Shown here in pieces: positions 1,178-51,362 of a stretch of DNA of 64,000 bases. The stretch is from NCBI GenBank assembly GCA_900323505.1, contig OOIN01000047.1:1-64000 (forward strand), given 5' to 3'. Positions within the stretch are counted from its first letter, which is position 1; every line of letters starts with the position of its first letter. The translations under genes were made by a program, and so were the position numbers. Source of the DNA: Ustilago trichophora (Eukaryota > Basidiomycota > Ustilaginomycetes > Ustilaginales > Ustilaginaceae). Under the pieces are notes generated by a model, which worked only from the letters and a program-made list of their open reading frames with translations, was not told where the DNA came from and made no database searches.

Positions 1178-1591
1178 ATACGACGAGATCTCACTACGCC
1201 GCTGCACTGATCAATGCCTGTGTATGAACGACAAAAGTGTTTGCCAAGGTGTGATGATAACGACGACGACGACGATGACTTAGCAACAAATCAGCCAAGT
1301 GTGTCAATATATTCCTTTCGCCGGACCCACATCCTGAGCAACCACACACCGTCAAGATGCTTACTGTAAGTATTCGTGATGCTACCTCAGGGTCTGCTCA
1401 TGCCGTTCAGGACCAAGGTAGAGGTGATCGGGATGATTAAGCGGATGTTATTAATATTTGTGCAGATGATGTGTCCCTCTGCTTCCTAGCGCAGCACCAC
1501 ATAAATTTGGCCACCCTTTGCTCTTCGCCGTCCGATAAGCGTCGGAAATGTAGATCTGCGAGAGCTGCACCAACGGCGGATCTATACGCCA
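961..1591. other. Intergenic, microsatellite only
   Basis: Apart from the dinucleotide tract I see no supported gene. A very short spliced ORF could be drawn from the ATG at 1356 (donor GTAAGT, acceptor CTCAG) but it ends after about 16 codons. Confidence 0.5.
1096..1173. repeat. Compound (GT)n-(GA)n microsatellite
   Basis: About 14 GT units are followed, after GATATA, by about 21 GA units. The tract is pure and therefore likely to be length-polymorphic. It lies between two minus-strand genes. Confidence 0.95.
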
Positions 1592-2425
1592 CTAAGCAAG
1601 ACCGAAGACCTTGTACTCCCCTGAGGCCGTTTGTGGAATCTCTTTGACGCCGAATTTCGTCCAGCTGATCAAACCAAGCCACTCGTTGTCAAATTCCTTC
1701 TTCTCTGCAGCAGTAAGCTGTCTCCCAAAAGTATCAGTAAGTACTTCGTCCAAGGTCTGCGTGACGGATGAACTCTTGGAGGGCGATTCGACAGGTGGGA
1801 TGGAAGAGAGAAGTTTCGTCTTGACAAGCAGCTGCATCTTGGCGTGGTCATTCTTTGCAAATGTTCGAAGAATGCGAGACCAGCCAGAACGGCGACGGGC
1901 GTTGATGAACCAGTGAGATACCTTCCGTATGTCGAGTGCAGAGTGTTGCCCCACAGACGATGCAGAGATTCTCGAGACCGATGCATTGGTGACCCGAGCG
2001 AGCATTTCTTTGTCTTTGGATGATGGGTATGGATCATGAAGGTTCTTGAGAAAGTATTCCCGCAAATGATAATTGGGAAGGAAGATTGAAACACGATCTG
2101 TCCTGTGCCTTAGTGATCCCTTGTTGCTTTCCAAACAATCGAGTGTTTCTTGAACTAGATCGCGGCATAACGTCGAGAAGAATCGATCCAGTTGCAGCCT
2201 TGTCTCGAGTACAGTCTTGATCCTCGATATCGTCTGATAGATCTTGGTAGCGGTGGACATATCTTTTAAATCGCCCAGGAGCGCCCTCTGTGCTTTTAGC
2301 GTCAGTGCCTCCGATTGGATCAGCAGATCAGTCCCAATTTCCTCTTTAGATATTAAGACTTCTTGTTCGAGGCTCTCCAAAGCTGCGAGCATGGATAGCA
2401 AAGAGTGTTCGACGTTACGTTCCAT
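1592..2425 (-). CDS. bEast-like homeodomain protein, C-terminally truncated
   Basis: 277 residues in one exon. The N-terminus (HSLLSMLAALESLEQEVL, residues 7-24) and the following heptad-rich region up to about residue 110 correspond to the variable dimerisation region of smut bE proteins. Residues about 116-180 form an atypical HD1-class homeodomain starting LPNYHLREYF and ending in the recognition helix VSHWFINARRRSGW. The conserved block after it is also present (DTFGRQLTAAEKKEF, ISWTKFGVKE). In Ustilago maydis, bE is about 470 residues and continues with a basic constant C-terminal region; here similarity stops right after GVKE and the frame ends 14 residues later. No divergently transcribed bW is found to the right, although bE/bW are normally a head-to-head pair. 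No splice donor near the break would restore a longer product. In smuts bE/bW heterodimers control filamentation and pathogenic development; a truncated solitary copy may be a relic, a diverged paralog, or a regulatory variant. Confidence 0.85.
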   Translation of the reverse strand: MERNVEHSLLSMLAALESLEQEVLISKEEIGTDLLIQSEALTLKAQRALLGDLKDMSTATKIYQTISRIKTVLETRLQLDRFFSTLCRDLVQETLDCLESNKGSLRHRTDRVSIFLPNYHLREYFLKNLHDPYPSSKDKEMLARVTNASVSRISASSVGQHSALDIRKVSHWFINARRRSGWSRILRTFAKNDHAKMQLLVKTKLLSSIPPVESPSKSSSVTQTLDEVLTDTFGRQLTAAEKKEFDNEWLGLISWTKFGVKEIPQTASGEYKVFGLA

Positions 2426-3155
2426 GCTGGGTAATCACGTCGGCGTGGAAGAAGGACGATACCAGGTGGTCTGAAGCTTTGAATTTTGCCAAATTGGCCG
2501 TAACGAAGATGCAAGATCCCTTCATCTCGGGTGTCCACGAAAGGGTCGAAGCGATCTGTTCGGCTACTGGCAGGCTGTGATACGCAGCATCTCTGTCCCT
2601 TCCGCAATGAGCTTGCGCAGTCCGGATGAACAACGTCCGAACGGTTCTTGCGCATTATGTATTCGCGAGTGGCGCATGTGAACCTAAATACATGGTTCAG
2701 CTGCGCCAGACGTAGTGATTTGCGCAGGTCGTCATCTGCTATGGCCCACTTTGATACCCAGTCTTCTGTAATATTTTGGCGTACCTCATCGTAAGCGAAA
2801 GCGATTCATGCTCCGACCGCCAACAGCATCGCTTCCAGGGGGCGGATTGCAACCGTCTCAGATACTGTTCGATGGCGACTGGGACGTGATAATAACCCAG
2901 ACATTTGGAAGACAAGAAAGCAGCCATTCGACAGTCAATAGTGGAAGGTTCGAGGAGCTTTTAAAAATGGGCAGAAAGGAAATTTCCGAACGCTTCGTGC
3001 TTGAAGAACAAGCTCAAGCGCAGCCCGCTCAAATGCGATCAGTGACCAGTCGTCTTTTTTACATTTGGCAGACAATATCGAAGGGTGGTGGAATGAATGC
3101 AGATCTACAGTACAGTACAATCAAGCAGGTTCACCGATCTGTCTTTGCTCTGATA
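2426..3155. other. Intergenic; expected bW position is empty
   Basis: This is where a divergent bW gene would begin. Frames here give only short unconvincing peptides without a homeodomain. A tandem TACAG motif occurs at 3106-3117, just before the MITE. Confidence 0.5.
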
Positions 3156-3625
3156 TTATTCTTTTCCCGCAAGACTACGTGGAGCCGCGCTGACTTGCGC
3201 GAGACCACCGCAGAGGCTTGCGTGAAGAGCATCGTCAAAGCGTGAAGCAGCAACTTCACAGCGTGAGACCAGCCATGATGACTCCGTGAGAAGCCGCTGT
3301 GGCTCGATGATCAATGTAGATTCGAAAGAGAGACGCGACGAGAAAATCTAAATTACACGTGCGGGTGCGGCCGTCCAGCCACACTGCCATAGCGTGAGAC
3401 CCACGTGGACACAGTAAGTGACTTCAAGGCCAACCCTCCGTAACGTTAGCACAGTGCTGTCACGCAAAGGAAGTTCTCTCACGCTGTCATCCTGGCTGGC
3501 CTCATGTCACGACGTGCCTCATCATGCTACTGGCCTGCCTTTCACGCAATGACAGGCCTTCATGCTATCAAGGCATTCACGCAACGCTTGTGAAGCATCA
3601 CGGACTCATCTGGGAAAAGGAATAA
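3156..3625. mobile_element. MITE, non-autonomous relative of the Tc1/mariner element at 6973
   Basis: The left end reads TTATTCTTTTCCCGC and the right end, on the other strand, TTATTCCTTTTCCCAG. TA flanks both sides (3154-3155 and 3626-3627), the target duplication expected of Tc1/mariner elements. The ends and the repeated CGTGA/CGTGAGAC words behind them match the ends of the transposase-bearing element at 6973-8717. The 470-bp interior has no coding capacity. I infer a deletion derivative that was mobilised in trans. Confidence 0.8.
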
Positions 3626-4400
3626 TAGAATTTCTTTGAAAATTGCGACAACGCAGAAGGCGGCTCAACCCGCTTCCGTAGAAGTGGCGCTACGCAAACC
3701 CTTGCATCAGCTCGTTCGGACCAAAAATTATGGCAACTCTTCCGAGTTTGAAGTCTAAGTAGAGGTGCGAAAGGCAACTTCAACTCTCGACGCAGGTCAC
3801 ACTCTTTCACCAAGTTCGAACAACCGGCTTTTCGGAGTTCGTCGGCTTCTTGCCCTATTAATATTAATACTGTTTTGCGATTGAGCATTCAGACCTGACT
3901 TTGACTTGAATCACATAATTTGTTTGACTCTCAGCCCCACTACCAGGTTATCACAATCCTAGCTCTCGCTGAAAAACGATGGATTTGTCTCTGCTGAAGA
4001 TTGTTGCGACTTTATCTCAGAATATGCGTGTCTAAAGTCACACGCAAGCCATGCGATGCACAAGCCGACGCACGAGGTCTGTGGCGTTCACGGCCGTGCA
4101 GCATCATCTCAAGACGCCTTACTAGGCTCGTGCGGTGCCTGACTTGACAATCTTGTGATGCGCCTCTCCAAAGACACTTCTCCGATGTTCCTGCTGCAAA
4201 CGTGCTCAATTCATCGATCCTTATCACAGCCACAACGCAGAAGCAGGAAAGGCAGACCAACTGACAGAGCCGCTCGATGTCTGCTTATAGTCGGTAGCAA
4301 GATCCTTCAAAAGCTGGGGGCGCTTCCGTTTGCTCGCTGATCTTCGTATTATCTACTGGGGATGCACGCCAAGCACATACTCCAACTTGCGTATAGAGCG
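3626..4400. other. Intergenic
   Basis: No supported gene. Several short AT-richer stretches and unlinked short ORFs only. Confidence 0.5.
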
Positions 4401-6787
4401 ATGAATGCTCTGTCCAATCTCTCGCGCCCCTTCATCTATCTACACCGATCTGCGGATCACTTTCACCGACGACCGAATCGGATCAACACTCTGCACTGGT
4501 TCCACTGTCCGACTACGACAACGCTGAAAGGCAGCTGGTAGAAGACTTAGAAAGCGCTGAAGCAGCACTCGAGGACCTCCTTGAGCAGCGATATGTTGCA
4601 GATGACCCAAATCTATCACTCGAAAATTCTGTGATTCAGGAAAACCATCTCCGAAATCAAGCCGAAGATCTCGAGGAACGTATTGATTCCTTGCGTACTC
4701 GCAAAGGCGAATACATGGAGGCGAAAGTCAATGTTGACAGGAAGATGCAAGAAAGAAAGCGGCCGGAGCTCGACGAGACCTCAAACAATCTTGAAACGAT
4801 TTCTATCAGAACAGAACCATCTCGACTGGCCTCTTATGCTGAAGACCCAATTCGAAACGAGCTCGCAAATACGATACAATTCTATTCGACGTCGATCGAA
4901 CACTTGAACGGAGAACTGATGAAACCAGATCCGCGGTATGCTCCACAGCTTTTTGCAGTTTTGATCCTCCGCTCCCAGTCATACGCAGCTATAGGTCTTC
5001 TAGGTCTCGCTAAAAATGATGCAGAGCGCGCTGTGGAACTCTTCGCGGAAATGAAGAGAACGCATGTCGCAGACCATGGGTCCTCGCTTTCCGGGGCTAT
5101 CCCGAGCGACAAGAGATCTTCCACTCAGCGCGTCTGTCCCTTGACTGACAATCGAGTTGCACACTCTCGACAAAGTCATCATGCGGCGATCAGCACCGGC
5201 CACTCTTCTGCGAAGCGCCAGAAACGCGAGGAAAGGCTGTCTCAGAGCACTTTTCTAGGTGTACTCGAGATGCCAACGGAGATCATATTGACAATCGCTC
5301 ACCATCTCGATCCTGTTAGTCGCATCCGCTTAGCTGGCACTCATCCTGGGTGGAGAAAGCTTCCTCACTTGTGGCAATCGCTCCATTTCTCCCGAATCGA
5401 CCAGGTCAGTGTTAAAGGTTGGCATCGTGACTCCATTAATGCTTGCATCGATGCCATTCAGACATGCCAGGTACGATCGCACGGTACCTTAGCGAGCGTG
5501 ATCCTCAAGGGCTTCATCACGCCCAACATGGTAGGCCGGATCCTGGATGCTTTACGTTCCAGCAGTGCGACCCTTACGCATCTCGCGATTCCAACTCTCG
5601 ATCAATCGCAATGTTACGACAAGCTATATCAGCACTGCCACAGCCTGAGTGGCATTGATGTACGACTCTGCCTGGATGAGCGCGAGCCTAATTTGTGCGA
5701 AGAGAATCTCCTCCGAAGTACACATCTGTTCTGCTCAGCAAAAGTACCTTTCCGGATTAAGACATTTGTGGGTAGTCCAGACTACGACTGCGGAAACGTA
5801 ACACCTCACCTGGAGGGTTTCGAGGTCGTCCGCGGTCTCCACCTCAAGCGGCAAAAACGACCAGACTTCATCAGTGCTCTTCGGCGTGCTGCACCTACAT
5901 TGATCGAATGGAGAGACTGTCCCGACAACAAGTGGGACAACACGCTGGTCTCACTTGATGACTACGGCATGAGCGTGCAGGACCTACCTCAATCTCCTAT
6001 CATCTTTCCTAAGCTGCGCAAGCTCAACGCCTTGTGGGCAGAGTCGGTATTTGATTGCGACTTCCCAGTTTTAATCGAGGCAAGATTTCACTCGCTTCGA
6101 GTCCCTTGGGCTCTTGCGCGATCGCCAGGGTATGGACGCAATCGAGTTGCCTCAGCTATTCACAGAAGTCCGTCACTCAAAAAGCTCGATGTCCTGCTTC
6201 CTGGCACCCATACTGCTCTTAAGCAAATCTTTACAGCCATCGGCCAACTCGAACATTTGGAAGAGTTAGGACTTTGGTCCCCCAAGACCATTTCATTACA
6301 AGCCTTTGTGGATGTTCAATACACAACTGCAAACGAACACCCTTCCCGCAAGATCATGTGTCCCGCACTAAAGACACTGCGACTCAGTGCACGGATGATC
6401 CCGACGAGGTTTGAAAAGGAGCTGGAACGTGAGCTTAGCGAGATGCTTCTTTCACGCTTCTATCTAAGCAACGGACACAAGCTCAACGAAGTCAGGGCAC
6501 GGACCAAGGCCGCCCTTTCGGCACATCAAGTGATGGGTTTCGTAACGCAGATGGATGAAGATGGATCAGTGAGCTCACAAAGCTCCTTGGGTAAGACTGC
6601 CGTTTCCCGAGTTCTCGGGGGCGAAAGAGAAATATTCGAGCCCGTCCTAACGACACTCATTATCACTCGCGGCCTGAGCAAGAACTTGATTGAGGGCAAT
6701 CAGTCTCTTCTGAACCAGCTTATTCTCGAAATCCACGAGGTAGGTACTTACTGTGAATCTGGTGCCTACACCGGTGTGGAATACTAA
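4401..6787 (+). CDS. F-box protein, damaged 5' end; paralog of 55248-57659
   Basis: The reading frame from about 4397 to 6787 encodes a protein collinear with the intact F-box protein at 55248-57659. It has an acidic coiled N-terminus, a TPR-like stretch (LILRSQSYAAIGLLGLAKNDAE), an F-box near residues 210-260 of the open frame (LEMPTEIILTIAHHLDP ... WRKLPHLWQSLHF), then leucine-rich-repeat-like sequence to the conserved end ILEIHEVGTYCE. The ATG matching the paralog start is at 4401 (MNALSNLSRPFIYLH against MVSAYLDDRPYIFL), but it is in another frame; an indel near 4450-4470 separates them and no GT-AG intron can bridge it. The first in-frame ATG is at 4715. Either translation now starts there, giving a shortened but F-box-containing protein, or the copy is a pseudogene. 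F-box proteins normally link SCF ubiquitin ligases to substrates; the substrate here is unknown. Confidence 0.7.
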
Positions 6788-44598: not shown

Positions 44599-44883
44599 GT
44601 CAAGATCCCTTTTTTGATAGTCTCACCTACTACCCTTTCTTTTATTCCTTTTGACGGGTGGATCCCCCCATTTGGCGTCGGCTCTCCCGCTGCTCTTTTT
44701 TGTATTGTCTCTTCTTGTCGAATTGGAAATCTGTTCGAGTCTGAACTTTAACCATTGTGATGTTTAAAGATACTGCCGCACGAGCTGTTAGAGTAGTCAG
44801 TGATGCCAACAATGATTTGTGGTGAGTTTAGAATGTTTGGAAGCGTGTGCGGAAGAGCAGAACCTACAGCTGTACTGTACAGT

Positions 44884-45010
44884 AGGGGGTTTCAAATTTT
44901 TCGAGTTTTCGAAAACTCGAGTTTTCGACGAGTTTTTGTAGACTCGAGTTTTCGAAAACTCATGAAGCTCTGCCAAAATTTCAAAAACTCAAGTTTTCAA
45001 AAACCTGCCC
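44884..45010. repeat. Left terminal and subterminal palindromes
   Basis: The 42-bp terminal repeat runs into several copies of the palindrome GAGTTTTCGAAAACTC and variants (CTCAAGTTTTCAAAAAC). These may be binding sites for the element's Myb-like protein or transposase (inference). Confidence 0.85.
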
Positions 45011-45196
45011 ATTTCGAGCGTCGTGCGACCATCAAGTGTGAGTTTTTGTCGAGTTTCTGTGACCACGTGATATATTCCGACTTCCGTTCTTTGATCCTGC
45101 GCCTCCACTCCACAAGGCCTACTCAACTTCAACCCTTTTGTTCTTTTCGTCAACCATCAACCTCGCCTCCCCTCGCCTCTCCGCTCCTCATCGGAC

Positions 45197-46796
45197 ATGG
45201 CAGGCTCTATTCATGACAACGACGATGATGAAAGCCAGAGCTTATCTCTTGGTGGCTGCGAAAGCACCTCGAGAGCTCTGGCCACAACAACAGCCCGCTC
45301 GTTTCTCTTCCCCGACTCGGCCCCTTCTCCAACCATGGCCAACTCCACGCTCGCTCAGCCCAGCGCGGGACGAAACTCGACAAGCTCAGCCGGGACATCT
45401 GCTCTTTCTCCTAGTCCCTCATCATCCCAGCCTTCTACTATCCCCGCCGCATCCAGCTCTCGCCACGAACAATCATCTTCTCAGCGACGTACCCTCCCTC
45501 CCCGCGCGACTCGCGCTTCCTCAACCGCTGCACGCGCCTCATCGACTAACTCAAGACGAGGTGCGAACTACTTCAATTGGACGGACGAGGAGACTGAGCG
45601 ACTTGTCGACGTCATCTATAACAACAAAAGGTTCCAGATCGCCTTGCTTCGCGGTCGAGTCTCCAACGCCAAAGAAAAGGGTCACAAAACCAACAAGGTT
45701 GTCACTTGTCGAGAAGTCTTCAAGCTCGTGTTCCCCGACGAAGAAGTCGCGAAGTGTGGAGATCGTATCAAGGCCAAGCTTCGCTTCCTAGACGAAAAGT
45801 ACAGGAAGATCAAAGCAACGCTGTCACAGACTGGATCGGGTATGCTCTTTCGCGACATGCAGTCGGACCACTCGGTGAGTATGCTGTTCTTGTCATTCTT
45901 GTCATGTCGTGGTATCATGTATTGGGTTATCTCAAAACTGACACGCTACCTCTCTTTTGCCAACTTGTCTCCTCCAGGACTTTGCCAACCGTGCTGCAAT
46001 TCTTTCGTACTACCCTTGGTTCGAGTGGTGGCACGAGATGGCCTTGAATCGTCCCGACACAGGACCTGTCGTGTTGCTCACCAGCTCCCCTTACGACTCT
46101 GGCCCTGCGCCCAGCGCTTCTGAATCCGACGTACAGGATATGGACGAGGATGTGGACGACGTCTTCACTCAAGACCGCCGCATTCCTGCTCTGGATGCGA
46201 TTGCCGAAACTTCTCACGACGACCCGTTCACAGGTAGGGTCCTTGCTTCCTCCTTGTCGGCCACCATTGCGCAGGCAAACCCTCTTGCCAACGATGCCTC
46301 ATCCAGCCGTCCTTCTGCCTCCTTTGACACTCCTGCGCCCACCAGCAGCCCCTTACGCCGCACCGGCAGCGCTACTTTGGGGGCTGATGACAACAACGAT
46401 CCCAACAACGGTACTGCTCGCGAGTCGGCAGTCTCAGGTTCACCTACCAGGAATCGATCGACTTCTCAAGCAAGGGGCAAGCGCGACGAAATCACAGACT
46501 TCCTGCGTGCCTTTATCGAAGACCATTCTGAGTCACAACTCAAGATAGAGGAAGAGCGCACAAAACGGGAGGAAGAGCGCACAAAGCGAGAGGAGTTGCG
46601 ACTCAAGTACCAGGAAAAAGAGAGAGAAAGAGTGGAGCGCATGAGGGCAAGGGAGCATACGTTCATGCTCAGAGTCATGGCTCAGTCACGGGCCCCTCCT
46701 GCCAACGATCACACCTCCATCAACAGCATGTTTGGCGGCTTGGATGAATCGCTCCAGGATCAGGACGCCAATAATCTCGACCAGCCTTTTACTTAG
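45197..46796 (+). CDS. Myb/SANT-like DNA-binding protein of the Harbinger element
   Basis: Two exons, 45197-45874 and 45978-46796 (intron GTGAGT...CCTCCAG, 103 nt, phase 0), giving 498 residues. The first 125 residues are Ser/Ala/Pro-rich. A Myb/SANT-like trihelical domain follows: YFNWTDEETERLVDVIYNN, then KTNKVVTCREVFKLVFP and IKAKLRFLDEKYRKIKATL. Exon 2 starts with a short aromatic block (YYPWFEWWHEM), then a disordered region, and ends with a charged coiled coil (KIEEERTKREEERTKREEL). In plant and animal PIF/Harbinger elements a Myb-like protein binds the transposon ends and carries the transposase into the nucleus; the same role is likely here. An intact frame and splice sites argue for function. 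Confidence 0.85.
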
Positions 46797-47166
46797 TCTC
46801 TGCCCTTGCTCCTGTATGTACAATCGCGCCACTGTACTTCAACCGCTGCAATTCTGTTCCCGCTTTGTTGTTCTCTTGTATTGTTTCTACGTTGTAATGC
46901 TTAGCTCGTCATGAACCTCAATGCAATGGCCTTTACATCTTCAAGCTCAACGTTGTCTCTGGATAGGTTGGTATGTGCGCTTCTCCGATTCCCGAAAAAA
47001 TGCAAAGGCGTTGTTTGCGCAGTTTTCTCTTGCAAGGACCGTCCATCCTCACTTCCATGCTTTGCTCTCCAACCTCAAGACCATCATCATCATCATCATC
47101 ATACCCACATCCATCCTTCATTCACGAACCCCAAGACCGTCACCGCCAGTAACATCACCTCCAGCC

Positions 47167-48738
47167 ATGGTTCGCGTCTCGCCAAAGCAGGAGCTCCTCA
47201 ACGAACTCAAAATGGCACTACAGTTCTCAATCGTGGCCGAAACGATGATGAACTCAACCTCTACCTTAGACGATGACTTGGATGACAGCGACGACAACGA
47301 TTACGGCGATGAATACGACTACGATGACAACTATGCATTCTCACGAGCACTCGCCATTGCGTACTTGGCAGTTCAAAGCGACCGATACTCTGTAGATCGT
47401 CGTATAATGCCTTGGCGCAGAGATACAATCTTAGATCGTCTGGACCACTACGCCGAACACAACCATAAGCTCTACCGCGGCCTAGTTCGCATGACACCGC
47501 AGGCTTTTGAGGACCTCACGCTACGACTCAGCTCAACGGATGTCTTCAAGGAAACCAGGATTTACAGGAGGGTACAAATGCAGATTGCTGTGGGCTTGTA
47601 CTGCCTCGGTCGATCAGGCAATGGCGGAGGCGTTCGAGATGCTGCTTTTGCGTGTGGGTGCTCATGGGGTTCCGTCCATCTTTGGACCGAGAAGACAATC
47701 AGGGCGCTATACGAGATCAATACGGAAGTTGTCACCTTTGCCACTGAAGACGAACGTGCCAAGGCCTCGGCCTGGGTGAAGCGAAAGTCTGGCGTGGAAG
47801 AATGGGGTCGCGGATGGCTTGTTGCAGACGGTACACACATCAACCTGGCGTGGAAACCTGCAATGAACGCTCGAGAACACTACTCATACAAAGGCGACTA
47901 CACCTTCAACGTCGCTCTAGTCTTTCTTCCTCATTCTCTTCGCATCGTGGAATCAGTTGTTGGCCATCCTGGGTCTTCCCATGACTCGCGTGTCTGGGCG
48001 TCTGGGCAGGGCATTGTTGCCAAACCTTGTCTCCATCTGGACGAAGGCGAGTTTGTCTGGGTTGACTCCGGATTCGGCTACTCAAGCTATTCTGTAAGTC
48101 CATTTGGCAATACGTTTGCTAACCAGAGTCGCGACATAAGGTTCTTCAACTTCAGCATGTCTCGCATTCGCGTTCGAGCAGAGCATGGCATCGCCTACCT
48201 CAAGAATCGATTTCAGTGTCTAATGGGTTATCGAGGAAACCTTTATTGCGAGGAAGACCATGAAAAGGCGGCGTACGCCATTCAAGCATGCATCATTGCT
48301 CACACATTTGCGAGCCGTTACGATCGACCTGAAGATGTAGCCGAATATCTGTTGGAATCGTATTCGCCTGAAGTTGTCGAGGATGTCACAGCTGAACTCA
48401 GCTCTTACCAGCAAGCGACGGAAAGTGCAAGGGTACAGCGTCGAGATAACCAACTTCAATACGAAGAGGAACTGGCACAGGCGACCCAAGGCATGTCTCA
48501 ACGGCAGCTGGCTAACTTCAGAGCTGATGGTGCACACGCTCTTCGAGAGGAAATGATTACTGCTTTGTTCTCCTCTCTTTCTCGCCGATTTGAAGATACA
48601 ACAGCGGCCTCGAGGCGCAGAGGCAGAACTGAGGCAGGCCTCGAAGCGGATCAGGTCCGTGAGGCTCGACGCAACGAGGTACGAAGAGCTCAACGGTCAC
48701 AGCAGGCTCGAAGGTCACGGTCACAGCAGGCGCAATAG
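47167..48738 (+). CDS. HARBI1-type DDE transposase
   Basis: 523 residues from the ATG at 47167; an upstream in-frame ATG at 46921 exists but the extra 82 codons look like leader (a CAT-repeat-encoded Ile run). The N-terminus is acidic (DDDLDDSDDNDYGDEYDYDD). A helix-turn-helix region (IYRRVQMQIAVGLYCLGRSG ... ACGCSWGSVHLWTEKTI) precedes the DDE_4 nuclease fold: first Asp in LVADGTHINL, second Asp in FVWVDSGFGYSSY, Glu in RVRAEHGIAYLKNRFQ. The C-terminal tail is Arg/Gln-rich. The protein should cut and paste the element together with the Myb-like partner. No stop or frameshift interrupts it. Confidence 0.92.
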   Translation: MVRVSPKQELLNELKMALQFSIVAETMMNSTSTLDDDLDDSDDNDYGDEYDYDDNYAFSRALAIAYLAVQSDRYSVDRRIMPWRRDTILDRLDHYAEHNHKLYRGLVRMTPQAFEDLTLRLSSTDVFKETRIYRRVQMQIAVGLYCLGRSGNGGGVRDAAFACGCSWGSVHLWTEKTIRALYEINTEVVTFATEDERAKASAWVKRKSGVEEWGRGWLVADGTHINLAWKPAMNAREHYSYKGDYTFNVALVFLPHSLRIVESVVGHPGSSHDSRVWASGQGIVAKPCLHLDEGEFVWVDSGFGYSSYSVSPFGNTFANQSRDIRFFNFSMSRIRVRAEHGIAYLKNRFQCLMGYRGNLYCEEDHEKAAYAIQACIIAHTFASRYDRPEDVAEYLLESYSPEVVEDVTAELSSYQQATESARVQRRDNQLQYEEELAQATQGMSQRQLANFRADGAHALREEMITALFSSLSRRFEDTTAASRRRGRTEAGLEADQVREARRNEVRRAQRSQQARRSRSQQAQ

Positions 48739-48840
48739 AGCGATGGATGCCCAGCAGCATAGCATCCATCGTACCACCAACACTTGGCTCACATCACTAC
48801 CTTGACGTAACGCTCGATCACCACCACCACTTGCGATAGG
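48739..48840. other. Spacer before the solo LTR
   Basis: Short stretch between transposase stop and LTR. It may hold the start of the captured MCM4 upstream sequence, which resumes after the LTR at 49792. Confidence 0.4.
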
Positions 48841-49786
48841 TGTTACAGGCCTCACGTGGGCTGACCAGGGTCAGGCACGAGTGGAGGCCGGAGGAGCGCA
48901 GCAGCGGCTGTGCGCAGAAATGGCGCACAGGTGCATAAGTACTCGGCCGGCAGGTGGAGCTCACTGGCCGACTTTTTGGAAGGAAATCGGCAAGTGGCAC
49001 CCAACCGGCGATCCGTACGCGCTGAGCGCAAAAAGGCGCCACCAGGGACGTACGGGAGAGGTGCGACCAATGACGCACGGCGGAGGGATGGCCAAGGGCT
49101 TGTTGCCATCAGGGATGGCGAGCAAGACGCTTGGGGGGAGATATGAAGGGCGCGTAGATGAGGGGGGGAATGAAGTGGGTGGCTCCCCACGGGTGCCGCC
49201 CAGAGCCGATGGACACAGGCTGATACAGCATGTGGCCACGTCGAGCCTTACGGCCGCCCTCCTGGTGAGGGTGAGGCCATATATACTCACACTGCACAGG
49301 CGTGCGATGGGGCGGAGCCCCATCCACTCTACTATTACTTAACTTATCACAATCGTTCAACCGTCAGTACAGCACTGTCTCTTGTATTCGTCGTCTTGCA
49401 GCAATCCAGGCATTGCTGCTATCTCCCGTGTGTGTAGTATCACGTTAGCGACGCCGTCGACACCTACATCGACGCTACGGAACCTCAACCGTAGGCAGTA
49501 CCCCCACTGCGGTCCTGATACCTCCATCAGTACCATATAACGACTGTCGGAGCGCTACGGACACTCGTGCACCGACAGGCGTCAACCTGCATTCCCCGAA
49601 CCCTCGTACGACCCCTCGTACGATTCGCCAAGGTCTAGTTTCGTGCCGCTCTGCCTCTGGACGGAGTGTCCACAGCGGTTAGCCGAGAGTTGCCCGCAGA
49701 CCGCCGACCACCGATTAATTAGTGGAAAATCGTCAGAAGACATCGATTCGGCGATTCCGGGATTCCCAGGCACACGACCCCTGACA
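48841..49786 (+). mobile_element. Solo LTR (946 bp) inside the Harbinger element
   Basis: The unit starts TGTTACAGGCC and ends CCCCTGACA. ATAGG stands directly on both sides (48836-48840 and 49787-49791), a 5-bp duplication as made by LTR retrotransposons. TG...CA ends form a short inverted repeat (TGTTA/TGACA). A CCATATATACTC TATA-like box lies at 49273-49284. No gag or pol sequence is present, so this is most likely an LTR left after recombination between two LTRs. I infer its orientation from the TATA-like box. Confidence 0.7.
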
Positions 49787-49872
49787 ATAGGCATCTCACG
49801 AGAACCACTCTATCCTTCCACCGTGCTCACCACAAGTCGCACACAGTTCATCAACCCCAATCTCATACCACA

Positions 49873-50596
49873 ATGTCGACTCCCAGCGGTCCTCCTAGTG
49901 ATGCCAAGATGCGCGATGCCGAGCAGCGCACACCTCTCGCTCCAGCATCTCTCTCAAACCGAAACGCAGCAGGTGCCTCGTCGCCACTTGCTTTTCCCTC
50001 GAGCAGTCCTCTCAAGAGTCAGGCCTCTAGCGTGAGGCAATCACAGGGTTCACTGGGAGGTAAGTCTCATTCTTCTGTCAAAGATGCTTACATGCCTTCG
50101 ACAATGCTGACCTTCCTTTTCTTCGCCCAATCTCCCAGCTTCGTCGCCACTTCACTTTCCAACATCATCACCATCGGCCCAAACATCAAGGGGTCAGAGG
50201 ACACCGCTTGCTTCAGCACGACGCGGCCAGAACGCAGAGAACCGCTTGCCTTTGAGCAGCAGCGGTATTAGCCGTCTCGACGAGCCTCTCTTCTTCCCCA
50301 GCTCCGGCGGAACCACTCCACAACACCAGCGTCGTGGTGAGATCCACTCTTCCGTCGCGCTCTCCTCGCCATCATTGCTGAGGAGAACGCGCATCAACAA
50401 TGACCCCAACAGCGCAAGCCAAGGCGAAGGCGCACCTGCCTGCGCCTCCTCCGGGTCCATGTCGCTTATCCACAATCGATGCAAATTTTCGGATCGCCAG
50501 GTGGTTCGCATTCAAGAGACATCTCGCCGGTCCACTGTATTGATAACCCTACACCGTCAATTGCACGTCATTTGTCATGCTTGTTGTCATGCTTGA
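49873..50596 (+). pseudogene. Captured, internally deleted MCM4 fragment
   Basis: Exon 49873-50059, a 79-nt intron with good sites (GTAAGT...TCTCCCAG), and exon 50139-50596 give a 214-residue ORF. The first about 165 residues resemble the Ser/Pro-rich N-terminal tail of fungal MCM4/Cdc54 (SSPLAFPSSSPLKS, SSPLHFPTSSPS, LDEPLFFPSSGG, QRRGEIHSS). The frame then jumps to the end of the MCM N-terminal zinc-finger domain (SMSLIHNRCKFSDRQVVRIQ, then ET), where it departs from MCM4. The AAA+ ATPase core is absent, so it cannot be a helicase subunit. The intron shows capture at DNA level rather than through mRNA. It may be transcribed from its own or the LTR promoter. Confidence 0.8.
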
Positions 50597-50859
50597 TGAA
50601 TGAGGGTAATGCCTTCGCCATGACAAGCTTTTGAGTCCAAGAGAGTTCTGAGAAACAGGCGTGAAATTTACGGAATTCGGGAACCCTTTCGTGAAATTTA
50701 TGGAATTCGGGAAATGACTGCAATTCGGCCGTGTGAGCCCAAAACTTAGATTGCAAAAACCCAAATTCGGTGCACACAAATGGGGGCGTCAAATTCTGAG
50801 TATTTTCAAGTTTTTCAAAAACTCGAGTTTTCGAAAACTCGAAAAATTTGAAACCCCCT
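50597..50859. repeat. Right subterminal repeats and terminal repeat
   Basis: GTGAAATTTA(C/T)GGAATTCGGGAA occurs twice at about 50664-50716. GAGTTTTCGAAAACTC lies inside the 42-bp right terminal repeat (50818-50859). The GTGAAATTTA repeat has no obvious counterpart at the left end. Confidence 0.75.
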
Positions 50860-51362
50860 AGTGAACTCGCGATCTTTGAATGCCTCAATAAATGAATATT
50901 CCACATATTGGATAAAAAATTGGCTGGACATTTTTGGGCGCAGCCAATTATTAAATAAATTCGCTTTTCAGATAATGGATAGGTCAGCTGCAGTCCCAAA
51001 TTTGAATAACCCAGCACATGTCAATACAAACCACAGCTTAATCTTGTTATTATCTGAATGAATATAATGTGCTTCTTAATCACTCACTGGAAGTGGCTTT
51101 ACAGGCATAAAATGGACACAGCTCTATTCAAAAAACTATAAAGGAATTGCAGCAATTTGTGATAAAAAAGGGGGAAAATGATGTTAATGCGAAGTAATTG
51201 GATGTCTCTAGTCAGGGAGAAACAGGCTGCACAGCTCAAAAATGCGGTGCTAACATAAATCAGTCAATTTTTTCCAAATTCTAGCTCTCAGTAATTAAAT
51301 ATTTCACACAATGAATAAAATATGCCTCCGCCCAAAAATATTCAAAGATCGCGAGTTGACTG

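Follow-up and report, generated by a model that had tools for sequence, protein, structure and literature searches.

An MCM4-bearing PIF/Harbinger-type transposon in Ustilago trichophora, with signs of rewriting from the host gene

A PIF/Harbinger-type element of the smut Ustilago trichophora carries DNA of the replication gene MCM4 as cargo. The element exists as two lineages, A and B, and the cargo of each is most similar to a different one of two host MCM4 genes, with far less divergence than separates the elements themselves. This suggests that, since its first uptake, the cargo has been copied anew from the host gene. The lineage B cargo is moreover a mosaic, with a host-like middle between older ends.

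Results

An element of the PIF/Harbinger type

The element lies in a 64,000-nucleotide stretch of DNA (the window), which is part of C44; C numbers denote the contigs of a 38.8-Mb, 45-contig assembly. Its features are listed in Table 1. The terminal inverted repeats pair over 52 nt with 94% identity (44877-44928 against 50815-50866). The right end of the element lies 263 bp beyond the end of the feature described in an earlier note on this DNA. A 3-bp target site duplication was read by eye in 10 of 10 element copies with both ends read (AGT and AAT three times each, ACT twice, ACA and TGT once each), the ACA copy being weak evidence as it sits in an AC repeat. A first reading of the junctions had given a 1-bp or TA duplication and was dropped, as termini A...T give 3 bp in all 10 copies. 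Members of the PIF/Harbinger group prefer TTA or TAA targets, a preference that was not seen among the 3-bp duplications of these 10 copies. Canonical Harbinger elements are described as making a 3-bp target site duplication (PMC12730594). The site that received the element is a MITE, and the uninterrupted sequence CAGTGAACTCGCG is present in all four other MITE copies that were read. This MITE (CAGTGAACTCGCGATC...GATCGCGAGTTGACTG) has TA on both sides, occupies 44880-44883 and 50860-51362 of the window, and has several other genomic copies at 97% identity or more.

Table 1. Features of the MCM4-bearing element in the window.
Feature	Position	Strand	Details
PIF/Harbinger-type element, complete	44884..50859	+	5976 bp; termini AGGGGGTTTC...GAAACCCCCT; terminal inverted repeats and junctions in 10 copies
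Left 3-bp target site duplication AGT	44881..44883	.	Junction reading by eye
Right 3-bp target site duplication AGT	50860..50862	.	Junction reading by eye
Left terminal inverted repeat, outer part	44884..44928	+	Terminal inverted repeat pairing
Right terminal inverted repeat, outer part	50815..50859	-	Terminal inverted repeat pairing
Probable second element gene	45197..46796	+	Overlapping ORFs 45197-46123 and 45957-46796; putative intron between
Transposase, DDE_Tnp_4	47167..48738	+	523 aa from this ATG; ORF open from 46921; PF13359
Left capture junction	48741..48771	+	CGATGGATGC / GCATCCATCG, inverted pair across junction
MCM4 5' UTR piece	48758..48840	+	96.4% to host C5 over 83 nt
Nested solo-LTR-like insertion, 946 bp	48841..49786	.	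TGTTA...TGACA; ATAGG at 48836-48840 and 49787-49791
MCM4 5' UTR, exon 1 (49873-50059), intron, exon 2 start	49787..50452	+	96.7% to C5
Retained MCM4 intron, 79 nt, GT...AG	50060..50138	+	Position as in host gene
MCM4 zinc-finger piece	50453..50520	+	97.1% to C5 over 68 nt; in-frame join
MCM4 C-terminal piece, 14 nt	50520..50533	+	Exact match, C5 4020-4033
Element right end	50534..50859	+	Sequence comparison with lineage B, C38 and C40

A DDE_Tnp_4 transposase is the defining trait of the PIF/Harbinger (PHIS) superfamily. The transposase in the window matches PF13359 (E = 7e-18, 65.1 bits, cut-off 24.8) and is 98% identical to UTRI_10393, a 523-aa protein; together with the terminal inverted repeats and the 3-bp duplications, this makes the element one of PIF/Harbinger type. 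The first ORF of the probable second gene has a weak Myb/SANT-like match (PF13837, E = 0.0015, 19.3 bits, cut-off 27), and a second protein with a Myb/SANT domain is stated for the Nuwa lineage (PMC12730594). The transposase frame is open in the window copy and in the C40 copy, so MCM4 is the cargo of elements that are probably autonomous. The likeness to Pack-TIR elements drawn in the earlier note is not supported for elements with such open transposase frames.

MCM4 DNA in the window copy

MCM4 DNA begins 20 nt after the transposase stop codon (48758) and extends to 50533. At its left junction stands a perfect 10-bp inverted pair, one half before and the other within the MCM4 match, possibly a trace of fold-back during repair. 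A solo LTR with the 5-bp duplication ATAGG lies within the MCM4 5' UTR piece and is absent from the C16 copy. The main MCM4 block (49787-50456) is 96.7% identical over 670 nt to the host MCM4 gene on C5, and 85.1% identical to that on C8. Between this block and the zinc-finger piece (97.1% over 68 nt) 765 bp of the gene are deleted, C5 coordinate 2044 being followed by 2809, with the reading frame kept. These matches bear out the earlier description of an ORF that joins the N-terminal tail of MCM4 to a zinc-finger piece by an internal deletion. They also bear out capture at the DNA level by a Harbinger-type element, given the retained intron and 5' UTR and the 3-bp duplications. Alignment to the host MCM4 gene, by which the earlier note had proposed that its reading could fail, agrees with that reading in nucleotide similarity and in the position of the 79-nt intron.

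An open spliced frame of 214 aa is present in the window and C16 copies. In NCBI the window fragment is the 193-aa 'uncharacterized protein' UTRI_04207, a prediction that ends differently. In lineage B and in a remnant on C38, MCM4 is followed by element sequence to which the right end of the window element has weak similarity in its first part and clear similarity in its last 160 nt (76% to C40). An origin of the lineage A right spacer from another gene was considered and discarded, as window positions 50530-50710 match only themselves and the C16 copy in the genome; against the C5 and C8 MCM4 genes, the spacer gave no match above shuffles.

Host genes and two apparent subgenomes

The host MCM4 is a pair of genes, on C5 and C8, each encoding 1018 aa and each with a closely similar WD-repeat-like ORF upstream. 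Other U. trichophora strains are reported at 20.7 Mb (PMC4966473, PMC8951962), about half the 38.8 Mb of this assembly. The right flank of the window has one homoeolog, on C17 (86%), and the matching place there is without the element and without the MITE. The assembly appears to hold two subgenomes about 15% apart. From the assembly size, the MCM4 pair and the C17 homoeolog, we infer that it represents a hybrid or diploid of two lineages. MITE copies at 97% identity or more were found on C44, C19, C2, C5, C28, C13, and C16. The six contigs with lineage B copies are absent from the 25 MITE matches listed. This distribution fits C44, C16, and C5 belonging to one subgenome.

Element copies and the extent of the cargo

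A search of the genome with the transposase, which gives lower bounds for copy counts, found at least 10 long element copies: two of lineage A (C44 and C16) and eight of lineage B (C40, C42, two on C37, C17, C14, and two on C1). Beside these, there is one copy truncated where C17 ends, and there are distant transposase relatives, four of which (L023-L026) had no MCM4 match to C5 in the stretches fetched. MCM4 DNA stands behind the transposase stop codon in a single orientation in all 10 long copies found. The cargo of both A copies is closer to C5 and that of all eight B copies is closer to C8. In one of the C37 copies, a stretch of about 7.4 kb of other sequence interrupts the MCM4 cargo (C37:400409-407777).

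The lineage B cargo is a pseudogene that has lost its ATG and has an in-frame TAA stop in exon 1. In C5 coordinates, the C40 cargo consists of 1488-1769, 1936-1985, 2813-3218, and 3667-4488. The C38 remnant (L020, C38:12438-14554) spans MCM4 2620-4494, continuous except for 52 nt and without the deletions of lineage B, and then runs into the same element sequence as in B; the fetched stretches of C38:1-28000 gave no match to the transposase or to the left part of the element. Lineage B and this remnant show that the B cargo once ended about 35 codons short of the MCM4 stop codon, and lineage A shows the 5' UTR as part of the cargo. The original cargo was probably the nearly whole MCM4 gene. 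The earlier claim of captured MCM4 is supported as to the capture and not supported as to its being a part of the gene. An ancestral internal deletion common to A and B, which their right breakpoints at 2809 and 2813 had brought up, was dropped because C38 is continuous there; given 4 and 6 internal breakpoints to compare, it is unsurprising that two should fall within 4 nt of each other (an estimated chance of about 7%).

The C38 remnant differs from both hosts mostly by C-to-T changes at CpG sites (103 of 344 CpG against 14 of 675 other C). The window copy (8 of 120 CpG against 4 of 285) and the C16 copy (13 of 116 against 2 of 280) have the same excess in weaker form. Repeat copies here thus carry RIP-like CpG mutation. 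A CpG shortage in repeats, with RIP as a possible cause, is described for U. bromivora and U. hordei (PMC5106213).

The lineage A cargo is younger than the split of the elements

Between the window and C40 copies, the transposase has a pS of 0.365 and a pN/pS of 0.20 (515 codons). The host C5-C8 pair has a pS of 0.333 in the first 166 MCM4 codons (0.20-0.37 along the gene), so the A and B elements split at about host depth. Over the same 166 codons, the window cargo has a pS of 0.015 to C5 (2 synonymous and 6 nonsynonymous changes), and its letters are therefore far younger than the element split; the C16 cargo has a pS of 0.031 to C5 (4 synonymous and 7 nonsynonymous changes). In the N-terminal tree, the window, C16, and C5 are separated from B and C8 with a bootstrap of 100, and the window groups with C16 (93). 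Re-copying is suggested because each cargo is much closer to the MCM4 of its own lineage than the elements are to one another.

The lineage B cargo is a mosaic

In a pseudogene such as B, private changes are expected to be spread evenly. Along the cargo from 5' to 3', the changes private to B number 15 in exon 1, 8 in the intron, 2 at the start of exon 2, none in the 406 positions of the middle, and then 5, 5, 6, and 12. This distribution is uneven over regions (chi-square, p = 0.003) and in the middle against the rest (p = 1.4e-4). A longest-run test was not significant for B (p = 0.066), and a window-count test chosen after that result showed that the emptiest 450 columns contain 2 changes where 15.3 would be expected (p <= 5e-5; p = 6e-4 for non-CpG sites alone). 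Scaled to the C5-C8 divergence, that between B and C8 has a ratio of 1.25 for exon 1, 0.64 for the intron, 0.20 for exon 2, and 0.07 for the middle, and past the middle the ratio is 0.60, 0.42, 0.67, and 1.00 towards the 3' end. The corresponding pS values are 0.20 in exon 1, 0.04 at the start of exon 2, 0.01 in the middle, 0.04 in 3667-4100, and 0.09 in 4100-4490. In the middle, individual B copies have 96.8-99.5% identity to C8, with C14 lowest.

Ten derived sites are common to B and C38 against both hosts; all lie in 3999-4483 and none in 2813-3218, and one further shared site, at 3786, falls where the hosts differ. Trees place B with C8 in the middle (99, in a quartet that rests on 2 informative sites) and with C38 both in 3667-4100 (85) and at the 3' end (100). 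The cargo of B is thus a host-like middle between older ends. We conclude that its middle is a replacement copied from a C8-type MCM4 once B and C38 had parted, with host-to-element as the natural and probable direction. No mosaicism was detected in lineage A, where divergence from C5 is even along the cargo (run test, p = 0.59), so that for gene conversion in A only the age argument for the cargo as a whole applies.

Discussion

On balance, we consider it slightly more probable than not that MCM4 was captured once and later rewritten from the host gene. A probably autonomous PIF/Harbinger element would have taken up almost the whole gene as DNA, into the space from the transposase stop codon to the right terminus, before A and B split alongside their hosts. 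The resident MCM4 would then have overwritten the cargo through homology-directed repair, for instance in filling the gap left by element excision. The cargo would by now be functionless, with internal pieces lost and the C38 remnant hit by CpG C-to-T mutation. One capture is favoured because gene, orientation, slot, left edge, and alignable right edge agree. The element-side left edge GGATGC is common to A and B, and the right edge can be aligned between them (3 of 2000 shuffles were as good, and 1 of 500 for whole spacers); the same-site argument depends on short junctions. Within MCM4, A and B share one site against both hosts (1660, G to A, a CpG in C5 and not in C8), so the case for a single capture comes entirely from position and edges. 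Given one capture, rewriting later than the host split must have reached all surviving cargo. The old ends of B are no exception, as they group with C8 and do not fall outside C5 and C8; they were therefore also replaced, or else captured, after that split.

This last option belongs to a somewhat unlikely reading, in which two elements captured MCM4 independently from their own genomes after the split, at the same element spot, and B was later partly converted by C8. Such a history would explain directly why A goes with C5 and B with C8 and why the two have only one derived site in common, and the MCM4-side ends do differ (1306 to 4033 in A and 1488 to about 4490 in B, in C5 coordinates). It requires the same gene, orientation, and element site twice, however, and the 3' end of A at 4033 (GCCGGTC) resembles GCCAGTC at the 3' border of C38; a deletion between the two would yield the end seen in A, an ordinary alternative to a separate breakpoint. 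We regard it as improbable that a single lineage made the capture and the other obtained its cargo by recombination between elements once the genomes had met, to be overwritten by C5 afterwards. Both lineages are now within one assembly, in keeping with this, but the two A copies are closer to C5 and the eight B copies to C8, and there is no site at which B has the C5 state and the window that of C8.

The cargo may renew itself. Once MCM4 had been taken up, its own homology would draw repair back to the resident gene, so that after the hosts part each element lineage would bear a recent copy of the MCM4 of its own host, on elements that otherwise diverge at host pace; we give this reading as a whole an even chance. 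Were the cargo self-renewing, the sequence age of captured fragments would not date their captures.

It is very improbable that the fragment is retained for an effect on MCM4, whether through competition by an N-terminal peptide or through silencing RNA. The open 214-aa spliced frame is kept in both the window and C16 copies, and the fragment is a predicted gene (UTRI_04207). The few changes of the window fragment nevertheless look unconstrained, with a pN/pS to C5 of 1.07 (only 8 changes) and of 0.62 for C16 to C5 (only 11 changes), both against 0.07 between C5 and C8, and the eight copies of lineage B lack the ATG and have a stop in exon 1, so that this lineage could not produce the protein from its natural start. 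By these measures, a function of the cargo finds no support, and neither does the competition with the real protein envisaged earlier.

The nearest known systems are a hAT element with histone H3 and the TET-bearing Harbinger relatives of rusts. In Dothideomycetes, transduplication of histone H3 by hAT elements is described (Dhillon et al. 2019, PMC6710886). There as here, a housekeeping gene of the host travels on a fungal DNA transposon and is multiplied with it, the copies decay by C-to-T changes, and the host gene keeps its frame. That account discusses transcript capture and retrocopies, whereas the MCM4 cargo keeps its intron; it also describes H3 copies in species clades away from the original H3, whereas the MCM4 cargo groups with the host gene of each lineage. 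The rust PHISTA elements are likewise Harbinger relatives in Basidiomycota with an acquired gene, but they are described with TA duplications and a TET/JBP dioxygenase gene (PMC12730594), in place of the 3 bp and the broken MCM4 found here. Host gene fragments in a basidiomycete DNA transposon are also described for Helitrons of Pleurotus (PMC4289320), which are rolling-circle elements with a different mechanism. As in Pack-TIR and Pack-MULE elements, for which gap filling with template switching is one proposed route, gene DNA lies between terminal inverted repeats and its parent gene lies elsewhere in the genome; Pack-TYPE elements are described as non-autonomous, whereas an open transposase frame adjoins the cargo here (PMC8277862, PMC8903248). 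Neither a Harbinger capture of MCM4 nor a fungal transposon cargo rewritten from its parent gene appeared among the matches listed in the open PMC literature. With the present case, the housekeeping genes known from fungal DNA transposons come to include the core replication gene MCM4, on a Harbinger-type element of a smut.

Identity to the parent gene is the common yardstick for dating gene fragments captured by transposons, and it also decides whether similar fragments in two species are taken as one capture or two. Should the host gene rewrite the cargo, capture dates would come out too young and capture counts can be wrong. The matched pair of lineages in the two subgenomes here would make the direction and tract length of gene-to-element conversion measurable for an essential gene.

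MCM4 cargo in other species was sought with two protein queries, which covered annotated proteins, so that unannotated pseudogene cargo is invisible to them. The query with the window fragment gave seven matches, its own protein and six others, of which P0049-P0052 read as pieces of ordinary MCM4 genes. The query with the MCM4 C-terminus had no Ustilaginaceae among the named matches, a minority of the 120 listed of 3817, and the matches listed include P0126, at 93% identity, on a 614-bp contig.
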